Of a stretch of 64,000 bases of DNA, positions 31,869 to 42,658 are shown piece after piece. Each line of letters begins with the position of its first letter. The first letter of the stretch is position 1. The stretch is taken from the NCBI GenBank assembly GCA_022448245.1, contig JAKVCO010000018.1, positions 1-64,000 of the forward strand. Reading direction: 5' to 3'. The DNA is from Paracoccaceae bacterium (lineage in GTDB: Bacteria; Pseudomonadota; Alphaproteobacteria; Rhodobacterales; Rhodobacteraceae). The translations under genes and the position numbers were made by a program. The notes beneath the pieces are model-generated. The model was not told where the DNA came from. It ran no database searches and was given only the letters and a program-made list of their open reading frames with translations.

Positions 31869-33209
31869 ATGAGCGTGACCTTGCAGGCCAAGATAGAGCC
31901 AAAACAAGCGGATGCAGCGGCGCCCGTCCCTGCCAATGCGGATGCACTGCCGCCGCAGACGCCGCTGTGCAACGGTCAGTATGTCATCGACGATTTTCTG
32001 AACTCGGGCGGCTTCGGGATGACCTACAAAGCGCGCGACAGTCTGGGCCGTCAGGTTGTGGTCAAGGAATGCTTCCCCGGCGTGCTGTGCCAGCGTCACG
32101 GCCTCGACGTCAGGCTGCGCGCCCCGCAGTACAACAACGATTTCGATTACATCGTCGGGCTCTTCAAGCGCGAGGCGCAGGCCTTGGCCAAGCTGCGCCA
32201 TCCGGGTGTCGTGAGTGTTCACCAGATATTTGAGGAGAACGGCACAGCTTACATGGCCCTCGATTTTATCGCTGGGCCTGACCTCTTTGAGGTGATTGAA
32301 AACCACCCCCATTATCTGACGCCCGAAGTGGTTCAGGCATTGGCCGAACAAATCCTACTCGCATTGGATTATGTGCATGAGAACGGCATTCTCCACCGGG
32401 ACATCTCGCCCGACAACATCCTTCTCGATCCCAACAAGACACCCGTATTGATCGATTTCGGTGCCTCCCGCGTGGGCCAGTCGCGGTCCAGCCGGGTTCT
32501 AAGCCGGGTCTTCACCGTCAAGGACGGCTACTCCCCGCAGGAGTTCTATTTCGAAGGCCGCTTCCAATCGCCGGCCTCTGATCTCTATGCGCTGGGCGCC
32601 ACGCTTTATCACCTCGTCACCGGCAGCTGCCCGCCCAACAGTTCAGAACGGCTTGCAGCGGTCGCGGCCAAGCAGCCGGATCCCTACGAGCCGCTGGGCA
32701 GCCGGTATTCCGCCTATCCCAAGGCATTCACGGCGATGATTGATGCCTGCATGGCGCCTTTCGCCAAAGACAGGATCCAAAGCGCCTCTCAATGTCTCGT
32801 GAAGATCGGCGCGAAGAAACCTGAAACGGGCGCAACCCCGCAAGGCTCTGCCTTGCCCGCCGCCATGGAGCCGCGGACTCGCGCAGACAACGAAACACGC
32901 AAACAAATCTCGCGCCTCGTGGAATCGAGCCTTCTTCAACCCGAAGCCGAACCCGCACCCGAGGTGGAACCCACCATGAGCGAGGAGGACCGCCGCCGCG
33001 CGGAACGCAAGGCAAAGGAAATCGAATACTGGGCCATCCTCAACGAGGACCCCGATGAGCTTAGGCGCGCAGTCGAAGAAGAGACCGCCGCCGAAGAGCA
33101 AGAGGAAGCCGCTCCAGAAGAACCAAAGCGCCGAAGCTCACTCTCTATGCTGTTGCCATGGCGCAAGAAGAAACACGCCGCAGGTGAGGAAGTCAGTCGT
33201 CAACACTAA
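31869..33209 (+). CDS. Ser/Thr protein kinase (Hanks-type), cytoplasmic
   Basis: G-loop SGGFGMTYKARD, VVVKECFP, HRDISPDNILLD, LIDFGASR, APE-like YSPQEFY; no obvious transmembrane helix, basic C-terminus. Confidence 0.93.
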   Translation: MSVTLQAKIEPKQADAAAPVPANADALPPQTPLCNGQYVIDDFLNSGGFGMTYKARDSLGRQVVVKECFPGVLCQRHGLDVRLRAPQYNNDFDYIVGLFKREAQALAKLRHPGVVSVHQIFEENGTAYMALDFIAGPDLFEVIENHPHYLTPEVVQALAEQILLALDYVHENGILHRDISPDNILLDPNKTPVLIDFGASRVGQSRSSRVLSRVFTVKDGYSPQEFYFEGRFQSPASDLYALGATLYHLVTGSCPPNSSERLAAVAAKQPDPYEPLGSRYSAYPKAFTAMIDACMAPFAKDRIQSASQCLVKIGAKKPETGATPQGSALPAAMEPRTRADNETRKQISRLVESSLLQPEAEPAPEVEPTMSEEDRRRAERKAKEIEYWAILNEDPDELRRAVEEETAAEEQEEAAPEEPKRRSSLSMLLPWRKKKHAAGEEVSRQH

Positions 33210-33223
33210 CGTGAGGATCACGC

Positions 33224-34261
33224 ATGAAAGGTCTAGAAAATCTCGTCCTAGCACGCAGAACTGCACCGCCTAAGGGGGCTGGGGCAGAGACGGAGGCACA
33301 AAACCCGCAGGAAGCCAGCGCCGTACCGGCAGTGGATATCCTGAACGAGAAACAGGTCAGCGAGCCTTTGTCTTCTGAGCTGGTCCGTCGCTCTGCGCAG
33401 AACACGCGGATGAACGGATCTCCGAGCGCGGATGCCGGCCCGGCTGATCTGCCGCCGGCACGCGGCTGGGCACCTGACATGCCGGAGGGCTGGGCGCCGC
33501 AAGAAGCCCAGGGCCAGGAGCCTACACCGCAGCACGAGATGGAGCCTTCGCGCGGCGGCTACAGGGCGCCAGCGCATAGCGAAAACATGTTTGTCGACGA
33601 TCGTCAGACACCGGCGCCGCTCGCTCAGGAAGCGATGCAGCTGATGGATGGGGCCCCTCAAATGCCCCAGCCCACCGCGCAGACACATGCGCCTGCGCCC
33701 GCGGCCCCTGTGCCAGAGATGGCGCCAATGACCCCGGCGCAGCCCGCCGCCCCGCAACAGGCCGGCAGTGCCAAAAGACGCAGCACGCGCCTGTTGGGTT
33801 TTTCTTCAGTGGAACCCACACCGGACCCGTTTGCGGCGTCTCCCGCTGCCGCCCCGGCTGCCCCAAACCAGCAAGAGAACCGCTATCCCATTGGCTGGCT
33901 CGTGGTTCTGGAAGGGCCCGGTCTTGGCATGTCCTATACCCTGACTTCGGGGCTCACGACCGTCGGTCGGGCTGAGAACCAGACCGTGTCGCTTGACTTC
34001 GGGGATGACAGCATCTCCCGCGAACAGCACGTGGCGATCGCCTATGACGAGGATGAGAACCGCACCTACGTGGGGCACGGAGGCAAACGCAACATCGTGC
34101 GCCTGAACGGGAAACCGCTGCTGACGACGGAAGAACTCTCCGACGGGGATCATCTGCGTATCGGCAAGACGACGCTCTACTTTGTGTCGTTGTGTGGTGG
34201 CGAGTTCTCGTGGAAGGCGGTCACCGATGCTGAAAACCAAGCAGCAGGTCACGATGGCTAG
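33224..34261 (+). CDS. FHA-domain protein with long Pro/Ala-rich N-terminus
   Basis: C-terminal FHA: TTVGRAENQTVSLDFGDDSISREQHVAIAYDED...RNIVRLNGKPL (GR, SxxH and N residues present). Confidence 0.9.
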   Translation: MKGLENLVLARRTAPPKGAGAETEAQNPQEASAVPAVDILNEKQVSEPLSSELVRRSAQNTRMNGSPSADAGPADLPPARGWAPDMPEGWAPQEAQGQEPTPQHEMEPSRGGYRAPAHSENMFVDDRQTPAPLAQEAMQLMDGAPQMPQPTAQTHAPAPAAPVPEMAPMTPAQPAAPQQAGSAKRRSTRLLGFSSVEPTPDPFAASPAAAPAAPNQQENRYPIGWLVVLEGPGLGMSYTLTSGLTTVGRAENQTVSLDFGDDSISREQHVAIAYDEDENRTYVGHGGKRNIVRLNGKPLLTTEELSDGDHLRIGKTTLYFVSLCGGEFSWKAVTDAENQAAGHDG

Positions 34262-35135
34262 TCTCACGGCAGACACCGCCCTCGCACAAGATATCGGCAG
34301 CCGCGCCCGTCAGGAGGACGCGGTCGTCGCCTATTGCTCGAAGGGGACGGAGCTTACCATAGCGGTGCTGTCAGACGGAATGGGTGGGCATAAGGACGGC
34401 GATCTGGCGAGCCGGATCATCGCGCGGGAGATGTTTGGCGAACTTTATGTGGCCGCTGCACGTCCCAAAGCACTCCGTCACAATAGTTCTTTGATGATGC
34501 GTGCGGCGCTGAGCTGCGCAAACAACCGGTTGGCCGAACATGTGCATTCGGGTCGTATCAGCAATGACACCGGCGGCACCGTGGTTTGCGTCGAGATCCA
34601 AGACGGCCAGATGCGGTGGCTGTCCGTGGGTGACAGCTTGCTCTACCTCCTGCGCGGCGGACGGCTGAAGCGGTTGAACCAGCTCCATCTGGTGGCCGCA
34701 CAGCTCGACATGATGGTGGCGTTTGATCAGATCGATATCGAAACGGCGCTCAATCATCCGGATCGCTACTGCCTGACGTCCGCGGTGACGGGGCAGGGGA
34801 TCCCGTCCATCGATTGCCCGGACACGACGCTTGATATGCAAGAAGGCGATGTGGTGCTCATCGCTAGCGATGGGATCGACGTGCTTGAGGAGCAGGAGAT
34901 CGCCCGCATCATCCAAAAGAACCTCCATTCCAAGAGCAGCGACATCGCAGACGAAATACTGGGGTCGGTGCGGGATGTTGGTTTCGCGGACCAAGACAAC
35001 ACCTCCGTGATCGTCATCAAGATCGACAATGGTCTCCAGCCCAATGTCGGGCCGCTCAGAAAGCTCAAGAGACAGCTCGGCACGCTGATGTCGTCGCGCC
35101 CGGGTGCGCGCATGGTAGCGAGGGCGCGCGCATGA
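34254..35135 (+). CDS. PP2C-type Ser/Thr phosphatase
   Basis: DIGSRARQEDA, LSDGMGGHKDGD, SVGDSLLYLL, IASDGIDVL, DQDNTSVIVI. Confidence 0.92.
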   Translation: MASLTADTALAQDIGSRARQEDAVVAYCSKGTELTIAVLSDGMGGHKDGDLASRIIAREMFGELYVAAARPKALRHNSSLMMRAALSCANNRLAEHVHSGRISNDTGGTVVCVEIQDGQMRWLSVGDSLLYLLRGGRLKRLNQLHLVAAQLDMMVAFDQIDIETALNHPDRYCLTSAVTGQGIPSIDCPDTTLDMQEGDVVLIASDGIDVLEEQEIARIIQKNLHSKSSDIADEILGSVRDVGFADQDNTSVIVIKIDNGLQPNVGPLRKLKRQLGTLMSSRPGARMVARARA

Positions 35136-36265
35136 TGCAGTTTCAACGCGAAAGAACAGACGTTGTGATGCAGCTGTCCCGCCTTGCGCAGTCGGATGTT
35201 TTGTCAGGAAAGTCTCGCCAACGGTGCCAAGAGATTTCCGAGCGTTTGGACACGCCCGTTGTCATTGGTTTCTTTGGCCCCTCGGGCAGTGGCAAGCGCA
35301 CGTTGCTGAACGAGTTCCTGGGCGAGCAGGTCGTGCCGGTCAATGGCCCTAGCGTCACCATAGAGGTGCTCGCTGGACCAAAAGCCACCTGCACGGTGCG
35401 CCAAGACGGGGACACCGTGGCCGAGGTTCAGGGCTATCCAACTGGGTCATTCTTGGATCAGGATTCAGCGTTTGCCACCATCACCGCGCCGCCCTGCGAC
35501 TCGTTGCATTGTGCAGTGCTCCTTTTTGAATGCGGAGATGATGCGCACGCGACGCAGGAAGCGCTCGCTTGGGCGGCGGACCGCGTCGACATGGTGATCT
35601 GGTGTAGTCAGTCATGGAGCGAAGCGGAACAGATCTCGTGGTCAACAGCGCCTGATCGTCTGCGCGATCACGCAATTCTCGCCCTGAGCAACAAAAGTGC
35701 AGCGATACCCGGCCACGAGCAGGAGGCTGGTTTTGCCTCAGTCCTAGACCGACGGACTGACGGGGGCGTTGCCTCTCACATTCGCGAAATGCTTGTCGAA
35801 GCGATGGAGCAAGAGCTTGCAAATGCTGAGCTTTTCTTGCGCCGCTACGGCTCTGATGAGATCGCGGTCGCTCCGGTTGCACCCGTAGAGGTCGACACCA
35901 AATCTGAGGCCGCGCTGCCGCATCTGGGCAAGTTGTTTCTTCAGCTCAGGCAATCCGCGCAGGGCATGTTGATGCAGTTGGATAGCGGACCCATCGATAT
36001 TCAAGACACGCTCTTGGCTGTTGAAGAGGCGCTGGAACGTTCGGCTGATCTCGTCATCGCCCATCCCGAAATTGGTACCGCCTGGCCCGCGTTGGAGCGT
36101 ACGATTTTCGAAGCCGGGGACCTTGCCGTTCTGCTGCGATACGAAGGGCGCGAGGAGCAGGTCAGCCAAGGCGTGCGTTTGGTGGCGCAGCTCAGGACTG
36201 AAATCGAACGCACCTACCTTAAAGCACATCCCGTGGACCGCTTGTCCCAAGGGAGGCCGCAATGA
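35132..36265 (+). CDS. Dynamin-like P-loop protein with degenerate GTPase motifs
   Basis: G1 region VVIGFFGPSGSGKRTLLNEFLG (Arg replaces Ser/Thr after GK); no DxPG G3; NKSA at the G4 position. ATGA overlaps at both ends. Confidence 0.75.
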   Translation: MMQFQRERTDVVMQLSRLAQSDVLSGKSRQRCQEISERLDTPVVIGFFGPSGSGKRTLLNEFLGEQVVPVNGPSVTIEVLAGPKATCTVRQDGDTVAEVQGYPTGSFLDQDSAFATITAPPCDSLHCAVLLFECGDDAHATQEALAWAADRVDMVIWCSQSWSEAEQISWSTAPDRLRDHAILALSNKSAAIPGHEQEAGFASVLDRRTDGGVASHIREMLVEAMEQELANAELFLRRYGSDEIAVAPVAPVEVDTKSEAALPHLGKLFLQLRQSAQGMLMQLDSGPIDIQDTLLAVEEALERSADLVIAHPEIGTAWPALERTIFEAGDLAVLLRYEGREEQVSQGVRLVAQLRTEIERTYLKAHPVDRLSQGRPQ

Positions 36266-38304
36266 ACATGACCTCGCATATCGAACCTGACGGCGGCCCC
36301 GCGCCGCTGGCTCAGACCATGCCGCCTTCGCCGTTCCAAGGCCTTGATGGCTTGGCCGCTGAATTTCACCGCCTGAGGGAATCGGTCGGGGATTTCCCCG
36401 AAGCAGGGCACGGCGCAATGGCGGCCCGCGCTAAACGCGTCTTCAAAAAGCTTGAGGAGTTTGAGCCCAAGGTCACTTTCATCGGTCAGGTGAAGGCAGG
36501 CAAAACGACCCTGCTGAACGCGCTCATTGGGCAGGGGGATGTGCTTCCGACTGACATCAACCCGTGGACTTCCGTCGTCACCTCCGTACATCTCGGCCCC
36601 AAACGCGCCGATCGTGGCCAGGGCTGCACGTTCCGCTTCTTCTCTAATGATGAATGGGAAAACCTTGTTCGCCACGGCGGACGGCTCGGCGAGATGGCCA
36701 ACCGTGCGGGCGCCTCGAGCGAGATCGAGAAAGTCCGATCGCAGCTCGATCAGATGCGTGAGAAATCGCGATGCAGGCTGGGCGACCGCTTCGAGCTTTT
36801 GCTGGGCCAAACCCACCGATACGACACGTTCAGCCCCGAGCTCGTGCGCCGTTATGTCTGCCTTGGTGACGACTTCGCCGGGGCTGAGGGAGAAGGCGAG
36901 AAGCAGGGGCATTTCGCAGATATCACGAAGGCCGCAGATATCTGGCTCAACGACGATGCGTTTGCTGTGCCGCTTTGCCTGCAGGACACGCCGGGCATCA
37001 ATGATACCTTCTTGGTGCGCGAGCAGATCACCCTGAACGGCCTGCGCGGCAGCAACGTTTGCGTCGTCGTTTTGTCGGCCCAGCAGGCGTTGTCGACTGT
37101 TGATCTCGGATTGATCCGGCTGGTGTCGAGTGTTCAAGCCCGAGGCATCGTGATCTTCGTGAACCGCATTGACGAGCTTGCCGATCCCACCAATGACGTC
37201 CCCAAGATCCGCAAAGGTATTGTCGACACTTTGGCGCGTTTCGGTGGTCCTCAGGACGCAGAGATTATCTTTGGCAGTGCCAATTGGGCGCTTAGTGCCA
37301 TGGCGGAAAACTTCAATAATCTGAGTGAGGCGAGCACGAAGACGCTCCTCGACTGGGCGAGCGCCCATATCGATGACGATCTGGTTGCAGCGACCCCTCA
37401 ACAAGTTGTCTGGTCGATGTCCGGTGTGCCTCAGTTGGGCGCTGCTTTGACGAGGCGTATTGAGGAGGGTGCTGCGCGCCAGTTGTTGGAGCGTGCTGAA
37501 ACCTCGCTCAAGAACATGAATGCGACGGGCACGCTCTTCCGCGCTGATGATACCGGATCGGGCGCGGGCGCTGTTTCAAGCGCGGTCGCGACGCCGGAAC
37601 TCGCGGCTGAGGTCGCTCAGTTGAAGGCGCGCTGTGCCGAGACGCTCGACGCAGATCTCGCGAAGGCGACGGAGGCGTTTGACCGGCGTGTAGAGAGCTC
37701 AGTGCGCACTTTCGTGAGCCGCGCACTGACCGACATGGCCGAACACATCCAGGCCAACAGCTCGGACAAGGTGTGGTCCTACGACCCGGCAGGCCTGCGC
37801 ATTCTCTTGCGTGGATCGTATCAGTCGTTCGTGTCTACTGCGGGTCGCGCGGCGGAGCGTCAAATGGCCGAAGCCGCGGACGCGCTGTCCCAACTCCTCG
37901 CGCAGGCGTCCGGTCAGGAGGGGCAGTCTATCGAGTTACTGCCGGAACCCATTCCGCCCGCGCCCGCAGCGGTGGAACTCGGCAGTGTGATTGCCCTCGA
38001 CCTCAAAGGTAGCTGGTGGACGCGGTTCTGGCGCAAACGCAATCCTGAGGCCTACGCCGAGGACTTCGCGAGCCTGCTGGAGGAGGAGGCGCGCGGCCTC
38101 GTGGCCCAGCTGCGCAGTGAATGCGTGGCGCCCTATACCGACGCGTTGAGGCGCAAACCCTCAGAGTTTCTCGCCGATCAGCTCCATGGTGTTGTTCCCA
38201 CGGAGCCTGCGAGTGTAGCGGCCGCGCCCGCGGCGCAGCCTGATGGTCCGGTGCACCCGCGCCGCGTCCGACGTCGCCCGATGCTCCGAGAGCATCACAC
38301 CTAG
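36262..38304 (+). CDS. Dynamin-family GTPase
   Basis: G1 FIGQVKAGKTTLLNALIG, G3 LQDTPGIND, G4 VNRID; C-terminal helical region with aromatic/basic SWWTRFWRKR patch. Confidence 0.88.
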   Translation: MNMTSHIEPDGGPAPLAQTMPPSPFQGLDGLAAEFHRLRESVGDFPEAGHGAMAARAKRVFKKLEEFEPKVTFIGQVKAGKTTLLNALIGQGDVLPTDINPWTSVVTSVHLGPKRADRGQGCTFRFFSNDEWENLVRHGGRLGEMANRAGASSEIEKVRSQLDQMREKSRCRLGDRFELLLGQTHRYDTFSPELVRRYVCLGDDFAGAEGEGEKQGHFADITKAADIWLNDDAFAVPLCLQDTPGINDTFLVREQITLNGLRGSNVCVVVLSAQQALSTVDLGLIRLVSSVQARGIVIFVNRIDELADPTNDVPKIRKGIVDTLARFGGPQDAEIIFGSANWALSAMAENFNNLSEASTKTLLDWASAHIDDDLVAATPQQVVWSMSGVPQLGAALTRRIEEGAARQLLERAETSLKNMNATGTLFRADDTGSGAGAVSSAVATPELAAEVAQLKARCAETLDADLAKATEAFDRRVESSVRTFVSRALTDMAEHIQANSSDKVWSYDPAGLRILLRGSYQSFVSTAGRAAERQMAEAADALSQLLAQASGQEGQSIELLPEPIPPAPAAVELGSVIALDLKGSWWTRFWRKRNPEAYAEDFASLLEEEARGLVAQLRSECVAPYTDALRRKPSEFLADQLHGVVPTEPASVAAAPAAQPDGPVHPRRVRRRPMLREHHT

Positions 38305-38329
38305 TTCCTTATCCAAGTTCGTTAGCAGC

Positions 38330-39151
38330 ATGCAGACATCACATCATGAAGTTCCACCAAAGGGCCCGCCGCGCATCGCTCTGATGGGCGAGTTCAGCGC
38401 CGGAAAGAGCACGCTGGCTAACCTGCTCTTGGGCTGTTCGGCCTCGCCCGTCATGGCGACACCCACCCAGCTCCCGCCGATCTGGTATCGCGCAGGGCAA
38501 GGGTGCCGCTACATCAATGCGGACAACAAAGAAGTGCCTCTCGATTTCGCGCGGATCAACGAGCTCGGGCCGGACGACGCGAAGGTCGTGTTTTCCCATC
38601 TGGACGCGCGCATTCTCAACGTGGCCGAGGTCATCGACTTTCCCGGCAGCTCTGATCCCAACATGAATTTTGACAGCTGGGAGATGTTGTTCCCACAGAT
38701 CGACATGGTCTTTTGGTGTACGCCTGCAAACCAAGCATGGCGCCAGTCGGAGGCCGCGCTTTGGCAAGAGATGCCTGAAAAGCTTCGGACACGCAGTGCA
38801 TTGCTTGTCACTCGGATGGATCAGGTCACCTCGGAGACCGAGCGGATGCGCTTGCTGCGCCGGATCGAATGCGAAGCCGCGCCCGAGTTTGGATCGGTTG
38901 TGCCTGTCTCGCTGGTTGGAAATGCGGATGGCTCCGACGGTGGATACGAGGGGCTTTCCGGCGTTCTCGAGCTGATCCAGCGATGGTGCACCGAGATTGA
39001 AGCAGAAGCCCGGATGGAGGAGCGCGCGCCGCTAGACTTCACGCCTGTTCCGCGACCACCTGCGCGCACGCCATCGCGGCCTTTGCGCCCGCTCGAGCCC
39101 GGGACCATCGTTCCACGGCGGGTCTTTCCCGCCAGTGGCGGCAGGAGCTAG
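38330..39151 (+). CDS. Dynamin-like GTPase, short form
   Basis: G1 LMGEFSAGKSTLANLLLG, G3 VIDFPGSSD, G4 LVTRMDQV. ATG 38330 preferred over the track start inside the upstream gene. Confidence 0.85.
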   Translation: MQTSHHEVPPKGPPRIALMGEFSAGKSTLANLLLGCSASPVMATPTQLPPIWYRAGQGCRYINADNKEVPLDFARINELGPDDAKVVFSHLDARILNVAEVIDFPGSSDPNMNFDSWEMLFPQIDMVFWCTPANQAWRQSEAALWQEMPEKLRTRSALLVTRMDQVTSETERMRLLRRIECEAAPEFGSVVPVSLVGNADGSDGGYEGLSGVLELIQRWCTEIEAEARMEERAPLDFTPVPRPPARTPSRPLRPLEPGTIVPRRVFPASGGRS

Positions 39152-39230
39152 CGCCGAACAACCGGTGGTTTTATCGCCCGAATAAATACATGGTAGCAGT
39201 TGCTTAACTCTGGATGCGCATAGTCGCGAC

Positions 39231-39581
39231 GTGAGTGAATCACCTGAGATATCTGGACTGTGTCCGCTGCGTCGCGACCTTGTGGGCTGCGAACTGGCAG
39301 TCTTGGCCGATTTGTCGTCCGAGACGTGCCTGTTGACGTCTGCTGAAATCGCGGTCGGTCAGGAACGTTTTGACACCCTCTGCAAAGAGGCCGCTGAGCT
39401 TTTGCGATCAGGCGAGGGCAACGAAGAAACCTTGGCTGTGACCGTGTCTCCCATGGGCACGCGGCTTTTTATTCGCGACACTGTAAAACGGTCAGAGGCG
39501 CTGTGTTTGCTGTTCTCGCCAACAGCTTCTTTGGACGGTGTGGAGGAGCGTGGACGCGCCTACCTTCAAGCCTCGGAATAG
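39231..39581 (+). CDS. Small protein, possible roadblock/LC7-like fold
   Basis: 116 aa: CELAVLADLSSETCLLTSAEIAVGQERFDTLCKEAAELL...ETLAVTVSPMGTRLFIRDTVKRSEALCLLFSP, alternating pattern as in roadblock domains. Confidence 0.55.
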   Translation: MSESPEISGLCPLRRDLVGCELAVLADLSSETCLLTSAEIAVGQERFDTLCKEAAELLRSGEGNEETLAVTVSPMGTRLFIRDTVKRSEALCLLFSPTASLDGVEERGRAYLQASE

Positions 39582-39590
39582 GGGGCGCAG

Positions 39591-40397
39591 ATGGCCTCTT
39601 TCCCCTCTGATGTCGGCACTGAAGACTTTCGCGCTGTGTTGCAGCGCGCGGCATCATCTGGCCCGTTTGCGCTGAATCACTTGCGCGTGGACACGCGCCT
39701 CGAACGGCTATGCTTCGTCGCCGATTGCGTGAACCAAACCATTCTGCCGCGCCGGATCGAGTTCACAATCGCCGGTCGCCGGGTTCTGTCCCTTGGCGCC
39801 AGGGATAGCCGCCTGATCTGCATGGCCATGACGAACGAACCGTCCCACACTGGCGAAGACAAGATGGAGCCATGCCCACCCGAAGAGCTCGCAAAAATCT
39901 GTGACAGGATTGATGCGGCGTTGAAGGTGGGTGGAGAGGTTTCCTTTAGGACGTCTGCTTTTGAAGCCTCTGCGGACACGCGCGGCATCGGGATCGCAGC
40001 GACGGATCTCTTTGCGGCCGCTGAGAGTAGCCCGGTTCCCTTAAGCCCTATTGAGGCGCTGGAAGAGTTAGTTGCCCGGCACTCAGCCGAATTGGTCGGG
40101 GTGTACTACGGCCCGCAAAGCCCAGCCGAAACGAAGGTCGCAGAAGAGGTACCTGACGATGTCGCGCGTTGGGTAGAACATCGGCTGAGTGACGCCGACA
40201 CGGAGATCGCGCGTGCGCAGCACGATGAGCTGTCTCTTCTAATCCACCCGAGCGGTCACTGCCTCGCCCTCGTCGGGCATATCGCAGAGCCTTTGGCGCT
40301 CCTCTTCGAGGGTGGGACATTGGTCCCCTTCGTCGAAGGGTGGAATGCGCTTCGTTCTACCCCGCGGATTTCTCCTCAGGCCGCCACCACCGCCTAA
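39591..40397 (+). CDS. Hypothetical protein, C-terminus resembles the preceding small protein
   Basis: 268 aa ORF 9 bp after 39231-39581; C-terminal DELSLLIHPSGHCLALVGHIAEPLALLFEGG aligns by eye with ETLAVTVSPMGTRLFIRDTVKRSEALCLLFSP. Confidence 0.6.
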   Translation: MASFPSDVGTEDFRAVLQRAASSGPFALNHLRVDTRLERLCFVADCVNQTILPRRIEFTIAGRRVLSLGARDSRLICMAMTNEPSHTGEDKMEPCPPEELAKICDRIDAALKVGGEVSFRTSAFEASADTRGIGIAATDLFAAAESSPVPLSPIEALEELVARHSAELVGVYYGPQSPAETKVAEEVPDDVARWVEHRLSDADTEIARAQHDELSLLIHPSGHCLALVGHIAEPLALLFEGGTLVPFVEGWNALRSTPRISPQAATTA

Positions 40398-41589: not shown

Positions 41590-41614
41590 TTGATTGAGTT
41601 CAAGGGTTAGGGGT

Positions 41615-42658
41615 ATGGAACTGGCAGCTTTGTTCCTGCTGTTTGGCGGCAGCCTTGTCGGGCTGCTTTTTAGTGGCGCTAGCGCAAGCGCCGAGGCCGA
41701 TGAAATCACTGTTGATGAAGACGGGGTCGTTCTTGGCACGGCGGGCGATGATCTGATCACAGTTGGAGATGGCGAGGTTTCGACCGAGGTTGAAGCCGGG
41801 GCCGGTGACGACACGATCCTTGATCTAGACCCATCGACGGATCTTGGAAACTACGATGGCGGAAGCGGCGATGATATCATCGCAGTTGCAGCCGGGTCCG
41901 GCGTCATCAGCGGCGGTGAGGGCAACGATACGATCAGTGTGCTCGCGACGGGGCTTGTCGCCGTCGATGCCGGCGAGGGCGATGACTTCATCGAGGCCAT
42001 TACGCAAGGCGTGGTCTTCGGTGGCGAAGGCAATGACACGCTGAGCGACGGCGTAGAGATCGACCAACCCAGTGGCACCCTCTTTGGCCCCGCAGGTGCT
42101 TTTAGCGGCGGTGCCGGGGACGATCTGATTTACGTGCAGGGTCTTGGCGACGCCTCTCAAGAGGTCGTGCAAAGCGCGGTTGGCGGGGCAGGTGACGATG
42201 TCATCGTGATCGATACGCGCGTGGCATCCGACCTCGCAGGGTACCAGAACGGCTTGGCTCCGCGCGTCGCAGGCGGCGAAGGTATCGACATGTTCACCAT
42301 CCAGACCGAAGATGTGATCCTTGAGGATGTCGATGATTTCATTGCGTTAACTGGGGGCGACGATCATTTTACCGTTGATGTCTACCGCGATCAGATCGCC
42401 GAGATTGCGGATTTTGAGCCCGGCGTGGACGTCCTGACGGTCGATGCGGACGCTGTCACGCAAAACGGGGTCTTGAGCGAAGCACGCATTGAAGAGGTCA
42501 GCTCTGGCGCGGACACGATGACCGTGCTGACGCTGGTCTATGAGAACGCCGATCAGCGGACCATCGAAGCCCAGATCGTCCTGTTGGGGACGACCGGGGT
42601 TTCTTGGTCAGATGTCGTTTTCCTTGGCGAACAGATGCCCGAACTCGCTGCTGCTTAG
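41615..42658 (+). CDS. RTX-type calcium-binding repeat protein
   Basis: Hydrophobic N-terminus MELAALFLLFGGSLVGLLFSG, then GGxGxD repeats (AGAGDDTIL, GGSGDDIIA, GGEGNDTIS, GGEGNDTLS, GGAGDDLIY, GGAGDDVIV). Confidence 0.82.
   Translation: MELAALFLLFGGSLVGLLFSGASASAEADEITVDEDGVVLGTAGDDLITVGDGEVSTEVEAGAGDDTILDLDPSTDLGNYDGGSGDDIIAVAAGSGVISGGEGNDTISVLATGLVAVDAGEGDDFIEAITQGVVFGGEGNDTLSDGVEIDQPSGTLFGPAGAFSGGAGDDLIYVQGLGDASQEVVQSAVGGAGDDVIVIDTRVASDLAGYQNGLAPRVAGGEGIDMFTIQTEDVILEDVDDFIALTGGDDHFTVDVYRDQIAEIADFEPGVDVLTVDADAVTQNGVLSEARIEEVSSGADTMTVLTLVYENADQRTIEAQIVLLGTTGVSWSDVVFLGEQMPELAAA

Follow-up and report, generated by a model that had tools for sequence, protein, structure and literature searches.

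Gene content and layout of the locus

The stretch analysed here (the window) comprises 64,000 nucleotides, positions 1 to 64,000 of contig JAKVCO010000018.1 from a Paracoccaceae bacterium (assembly GCA_022448245.1), and the element under study is a block of eight closely packed open reading frames (ORFs) on its + strand, at 31869–40397. In order, the block encodes a serine/threonine (Ser/Thr) protein kinase (K), a protein with an FHA domain, a PP2C-family phosphatase, a degenerate P-loop protein (D1), a large dynamin-like GTPase (D2), a short dynamin-type G domain (D3) and two small proteins (s1 and s2), as shown in Table 1. The eight consecutive same-strand genes described in an earlier note on this DNA were all found in place, together with the three overlaps that it reported: ATGA overlaps join PP2C to D1 at 35132 and D1 to D2 at 36262, and the ATG of PP2C at 34254 gives an 8 bp overlap with the FHA gene, which ends at 34261. 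The block and the gene for a ROK-family regulator that precedes it are flanked by a sugar ABC transporter on one side and a LacI/inositol-catabolism cluster on the other. No step in base composition was observed at the module borders, and a promoter and terminator scan of the module returned matches at chance level only. Just past the LacI regulator, at 41594–42658, a glycine/aspartate-rich RTX-like repeat protein is encoded, for which no NCBIfam match was obtained.

Table 1. Features of the eight-gene block, in window coordinates.
Feature	Coordinates	Strand	Basis and remarks
K: Ser/Thr protein kinase, 446 aa	31869..33209	+	Pfam Pkinase 116.5 bits, motifs, family alignment, transmembrane scan
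FHA protein, 345 aa: C-terminal FHA domain preceded by a long low-complexity N-terminal region and a conserved Thr motif	33224..34261	+	Pfam FHA 30.6 bits
Thr188 codon, in the (K/S)TRLLGF motif that precedes the FHA domain; candidate site of a phospho-switch	33785..33787	+	
PP2C-family Ser/Thr phosphatase	34254..35135	+	ORF can open at 34182; Pfam PP2C_2 35.8 bits
D1: degenerate P-loop protein, P-loop GPSGSGK at 49, without DxPG	35132..36265	+	
D2: large dynamin-like GTPase, 680 aa, G1/G3/G4 intact	36262..38304	+	Dynamin_N 51.1 bits
D3: short dynamin-type G domain	38330..39151	+	start uncertain (38243–38330); ORF opens at 38243
s1: roadblock/LC7-fold protein, 116 aa, GTG start	39231..39581	+	predicted fold; no Pfam match
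s2: conserved two-part protein, 268 aa, motif EIDETxLPRxL	39591..40397	+	family of 47 by iterated profile

Conservation, distribution and division of the module

Neighbourhoods of 20 kb were fetched and mapped. The order K-FHA-PP2C-D1-D2-D3-s1-s2 was kept in 41 type-A loci, 35 of which hold all eight families. Five of the six incomplete loci are cut by contig ends, and in the sixth (L076) only K is missing in cis, its genome (G191) having a second K-FHA-PP2C set. The eight-gene order recurs across dozens of genomes at about 20–47% median protein identity with varying flanks; the outer flanks differ between D2 subclades and are often inherited within them. The D2 proteins of type-A loci group into a single clade (41 rows, SH-aLRT 99); an extra divergent D2 copy in L073 falls outside it. 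Pairwise protein distances across the block correlate positively (0.24–0.75), with D2-D3 the highest (0.75) and FHA the weakest (0.24–0.54). The block is one conserved unit, lineage-restricted and patchily distributed, and its genes are not scattered neighbours. Only the gap of 80 bp between D3 and s1 speaks for chance neighbours or several unrelated operons; however, a gap at this place is characteristic of the family (−14 to 198 bp), and the order persists in dozens of divergent loci whose flanks vary, so that synteny refutes the idea and leaves it a vanishingly small probability.

D2 was present in 60 of the 248 sampled genomes of the window's family. Outside this family, no D2 match was detected at E 1e-20 in the class sample, and a single weaker match (in G863) was detected among 398 genomes of the phylum. 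The corresponding locus, L138 (9346–12824), holds the sole D2-D3-like pair seen outside the family. The two small ORFs after this pair (126 and 186 aa) were matched by neither the s1 nor the s2 profile. A related genome without a D2 match (G055) carries a collinear LacI-Gfo-Gfo-iolD cluster (63–78% identity) directly after a sugar ABC transporter, with no block between them. This arrangement is suggestive of an empty site and not a clean one, because the transporter is only 31–37% identical to that of the window.

Two recurrent contexts were considered as functional hints and rejected. The module lies directly upstream of an mreB gene in L053, L057, L059, L062, L065 and L069, most with the same gene cluster after it, and a two-component pair accompanies it in L040, L064, L067, L068 and L072. 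Inheritance explains both, since the mre carriers make up a single D2 subclade and most of the two-component carriers likewise group in one; the position next to mreB is probably inherited.

The patchy distribution, the copies carried on Leisingera plasmids and the shifting contexts would also suit an anti-phage or membrane-damage abortive infection system in which the kinase trio is the trigger and the dynamins seal or disrupt membranes. Bacillus DynA confers population-level phage resistance (PMC8844932), a kinase-kinase-phosphatase module protects Pseudomonas (PMC11341870), K scores against PADLOC kinases, and D2 scores weakly against LeoA/LeoBC. However, the PADLOC kinase matches look like generic kinase homology, the 91 flanking proteins are mostly housekeeping with a handful of low-specificity PADLOC matches, and no D2 match was obtained among 50,697 phage records. 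A defence-island context and a phage-borne element were rejected on these last two counts, and a role in defence is considered rather unlikely.

The module divides naturally into a signalling half (K-FHA-PP2C-D1) and an effector half (D2-D3-s1-s2). On one plasmid of Leisingera sp. S132, D2-D3-s1-s2 is convergent with D1-PP2C-FHA-two binding proteins-K, and a second plasmid of the same strain has a complete eight-gene copy. In G003, K-FHA-PP2C-D1 lies about 3.1 Mb (contig coordinates) from the D2-D3 genes, and Ruegeria THAF33 shows the order D2-D3-s1-s2-D2-D3-K-FHA-PP2C, then two binding proteins. From these split loci, D1 therefore tends to accompany the kinase trio, and s1 and s2 tend to accompany D2-D3. 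Many type-B loci contain D2-D3 pairs only, some two or three in tandem. L078 (5834–14785) and L083 (6670–15553) each have three tandem D2-D3-like pairs and no kinase trio within the 20 kb fetched; several further loci carry two pairs, and the second or middle D2 copies form a divergent clade of their own. At the level of whole genomes in the family sample, D2 was found in 46 of the 49 that encode the FHA protein (p = 9e-34, without correction for phylogeny).

Signalling proteins, GTPases and small proteins

The kinase had been called intact in the earlier note, and the functional residues of kinase, FHA reader and PP2C eraser were found intact and conserved. K retains its catalytic motifs (GGFG 47, VVVKE, HRD 176, DFG 196 and SPQE 222), and PP2C retains the metal-site motifs DGMGG, SDG and QDN and matches the NCBIfam Stp1/IreP PP2C family with 115.9 bits, under that family's own cut-off. 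The residues of the FHA phosphothreonine (pThr) pocket, GR, SR(E/N)xH and N, are conserved in 39 sequences. Of the 36 FHA proteins encoded at type-A loci, 34 carry the motif [TS]R[LIVM][LIVMF]GF upstream of the FHA domain. The two that do not are a second, short FHA-like ORF (L050) and a protein that retains RVRT. Thr188 in this motif is a candidate phospho-switch site because of the analogy with OdhI/GarA, whose type of switch we take as the model for it.

A predicted transmembrane (TM) helix was found in K at 8 of 40 loci. Periplasmic-type sensors are encoded nearby at five of these eight loci versus none of the other 32 (p = 9e-5, phylogeny not corrected), and they are of two kinds, PBP-OmpA proteins accompanied by PilJ, and binding proteins akin to the LysM protein from Leisingera described below. 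This coincidence is suggestive of an envelope input in the TM-kinase subtypes, and some of the sensors are putatively peptidoglycan-binding. Within the split Leisingera-plasmid K-FHA-PP2C-D1 operon (L145, 19568–21912), two binding-type proteins have signal-peptide-like N-termini, and one of them has a Pfam LysM match; their homologues come after PP2C in L080, L085 and L106, and annotation indicates the same for L100. In L107, L109 and L112, kinase/FHA/PP2C sets adjoin PBP-type and PilJ-domain genes, with no D2-D3 in the fetched stretch, and the genome of L107 (G184) gave no D2 match. These sets are possibly a separate signalling system with a common front end.

The kinase, the reader and the phosphatase are the same three types as in the threonine-phosphorylation unit of the type VI secretion system (T6SS), PpkA-Fha-PppA, and a detached unit of this kind might stand beside the GTPases by accident. 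However, VipB is absent from the host genome, and it was found in 10 of 38 module-bearing versus 3 of 15 module-free genomes (p = 0.74), on other contigs or more than 150 kb from the module where present. The NCBIfam matches of K, FHA and PP2C include no T6SS-specific family, T6SS structural genes, which a detached unit would lead one to expect in most syntenic loci, were not seen, and the FHA protein co-occurs with D2. The separation of the trio from T6SS, as claimed earlier, was thus supported, and an accidental T6SS remnant appears extremely improbable.

D2 is clearly a dynamin-like protein (DLP) by its sequence. All three G motifs (G1, DTPG-type and N(K/R)xD-type) are present in 74 of 74 homologues, and profile matches in the PDB include the Campylobacter DLP (5owv) and the Nostoc BDLP (2j68). 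A tryptophan cluster, WWxxxW at 585–590, has W585, W586 and W590 invariant in 17 aligned sequences, with a basic stretch next to it. The length of D2 would suffice for a helical neck/trunk and a membrane-binding tip, and D3 (about 270–300 aa) is too short for a full one. D3 scores 33 bits against Dynamin_N (cut-off 27), and its window copy has G1, DFPG and TRMD intact; among the homologues, G1 is kept in 72 of 72, DxPG in 65 of 72 and G4 in 51 of 72 (strict pattern). By size, D3 is essentially a G domain. D1 reaches Dynamin_N at E 0.058, under the cut-off; it usually keeps the P-loop, and since DxPG is missing in 31 of 34 D1 proteins, it is a candidate pseudo-GTPase, with a putative distant relationship to D3. 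The three dynamin-like GTPases proposed earlier therefore come down to one clear DLP (D2) and one short GTPase over the cut-off (D3), with D1 dropping out as a degenerate P-loop protein. A D1 homologue at L144 (10691–11926) carries the RefSeq label 'zeta toxin family protein'; the family profile places it as the degenerate P-loop component of the module, and the label is probably misleading.

Roadblock/LC7 proteins are known chiefly for regulating Ras-like GTPases. No Pfam model detects a roadblock domain in s1 by sequence, and its profile gave implausible matches only against PDB sequences; fold comparison alone worked. The AlphaFold2 (AF2) model of s1 has a pLDDT of 91.6 and a pTM of 0.84 (45-row alignment; the s1 and s2 alignments were built without plasmid-record rows). 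Foldseek matched it to roadblock/LC7 proteins at E 3e-5, with a TM-score of up to 0.75 to MglB, and VIA Z reached 15.3 to 3kye, 12.6–13.8 to MglB and, in round figures, 13–14 to Myxococcus MglB and Ragulator subunits, well over the middling background quoted as 7–8. The model thereby confidently assigns s1 to the roadblock/LC7 domain, with an alpha-beta-beta-alpha-beta-beta-beta-alpha fold. The second small protein, s2, is kept in nearly every type-A locus; a single-sequence profile missed its family, and a cluster-derived profile gave 47 members. It has no Pfam match, its AF2 model reached a pLDDT of 81 and a pTM of 0.60, and the s1-to-s2 profile comparison is weak (E 0.018, probability 2.5%). 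On the model, the C-terminal half of s2 is possibly roadblock/longin-like. The roadblock-like character that the earlier note gave to both small proteins accordingly holds by predicted fold for s1 and is unproven for s2.

The combination of roadblock protein, GTPase and kinase resembles the logic of the conservons (PMC13343842), and the main rival explanation is a G-protein signalling relay of that type, in which the GTPases and the roadblock protein pass a phospho-signal to gene expression or metabolism with no membrane remodelling. In the window copy of the block, all eight proteins are soluble by the TM scan, with no predicted TM helix, and D3 and D1 are near G-domain size, both of which agree with such a relay. 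However, D2, a dynamin-family protein of 680 aa with an invariant Trp-rich basic segment, exceeds the needs of a switch, and no transcription factor or other output gene lies within the conserved block. A relay is regarded as the less likely reading.

A candidate phospho-controlled membrane machine and its relation to known systems

For the computed features, namely gene content, order, co-occurrence, domains, intact motifs, the s1 fold, splitting and the TM-kinase/sensor coincidence, the best explanation is that Ser/Thr phosphorylation serves as the switch for a dynamin-like membrane machine in an eight-gene, lineage-restricted and patchy module; we hold it tentatively, at somewhat less than an even chance. 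Control of the dynamin-like machine by the kinase trio is helped by the co-occurrence of FHA and D2, by the split loci and by the TM-kinase/sensor coincidence. We infer the signal flow and the membrane action, including every arrow of the mechanism, as follows. An envelope condition would activate K, sensed in some subtypes by a periplasmic part of K itself or by a separate sensor; in the subtype seen in the window, the soluble kinase would receive some other, unspecified input. K would then phosphorylate Thr188 of the FHA protein, the pThr would be bound by the FHA domain of the same protein or of a partner in an OdhI/GarA-like switch, and PP2C would reverse the step. Through D1, the FHA protein may release or recruit the D2-D3 pair. 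D2, with D3 as its G-domain partner, would assemble on the inner membrane via the invariant aromatic-basic segment and tether, remodel or seal the membrane, and s1 (with s2) might set the nucleotide state of the GTPases or scaffold them, as MglB does for MglA. Bacterial DLP genes commonly occur as pairs within operons, and the proteins have membrane-tethering activity in vitro (PMC6104087).

Several points weigh against this phosphorylation-gated machine. The links from K to the FHA protein, from the latter to the GTPases and from s1 to a GTPase are putative. The window K has neither a predicted TM helix nor a sensor neighbour, and the TM-kinase/sensor association comes from few, partly related loci. 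Many type-B D2-D3 loci lack a neighbouring kinase trio, and 14 genomes of the family sample have D2 without an FHA match, which means that the effector half can stand alone. D3 has no room for a dynamin stalk, D1 is without G3 and G4, and the s2 C-terminal half gives weak roadblock/longin-like matches (best Z 6.7, weak E-values). To our knowledge, bacterial roadblock domains occur with small Ras-like GTPases and not with dynamins.

With moderate confidence, the gene content and architecture are categorically new relative to the systems and literature searched, the function being putative. The earlier note's suggestion of an undescribed system stands in that no description of the gene set was found in the full-text literature searched, a coverage that leaves out bioRxiv and most subscription journals. 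That the module represents a novel class of signalling machine, in which FHA-read Ser/Thr phosphorylation and roadblock-type regulators govern a dynamin-like membrane-remodelling complex, is a possibility that we put a little below even. If true, membrane dynamics would come under a bacterial version of the kinase-plus-roadblock-plus-GTPase logic. As far as we know, the switching-on of bacterial DLPs is largely unknown, and the module looks like an unstudied bacterial route to membrane control; the operon offers a compact system in culturable Rhodobacterales (Leisingera, Ruegeria) for direct tests of phospho-controlled membrane remodelling.

No known system tested takes the module as a member. 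In MADS defence, K scores 144 bits against MAD6 (cut-off 460), D1 and D2 reach MAD8 only at E 0.03–0.05, and no further MAD partner was listed. The DO-GTPase/GAP1 conflict systems (PMC7159879) share paired TRAFAC GTPases and conserved partner genes, some with a kinase and PP2C; theirs is a separate GTPase family, in many cases bearing zinc ribbons or TM segments and paired with GAP1, and no dynamin or roadblock component appears in the passages of that account considered here. The T6SS pathway PpkA/Fha/PppA shares with the module an operon that combines a kinase with an FHA reader and a PP2C eraser, whereas the module has no T6SS genes and another presumed target machine, and its FHA protein has the TRLLGF Thr motif and no match to a T6SS FHA family. 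The small FHA switches OdhI/GarA and FhaB share an upstream Thr-bearing tail followed by an FHA domain, and the NCBIfam similarity of the FHA protein to FhaB and OdhI is under the cut-offs; the FHA protein of the module differs in a longer low-complexity N-terminus, another conserved motif and another presumed target. The actinobacterial conservons (AGPS, CvnA-D) and MglA-MglB resemble the module in an operon-encoded GTPase and roadblock protein under a kinase, and in the conservons, too, extracytoplasmic sensing varies with kinase architecture. Unlike CvnA, however, the kinase of the module is a Ser/Thr Pkinase, with no histidine-kinase domain match in the block; its GTPases match Dynamin_N and not the Ras/Arf-type models of CvnD; and FHA and PP2C are present, in contrast to both the conservons and MglA-MglB. 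The paired DLPs (Campylobacter Cj-DLP1/2, Nostoc BDLP and LeoABC) are similar in that a large DLP gene adjoins a second dynamin-type GTPase with intact G motifs. D2 matched the LeoA/LeoBC profiles at E 1.5e-12 and 5e-8, the best LeoA stretch being only 46 residues, which places the module outside that system. It differs from all these pairs in that the partner D3 is merely a G domain, and in that the operon also encodes a third P-loop protein, which is degenerate, together with a roadblock protein and a kinase/FHA/PP2C switch.

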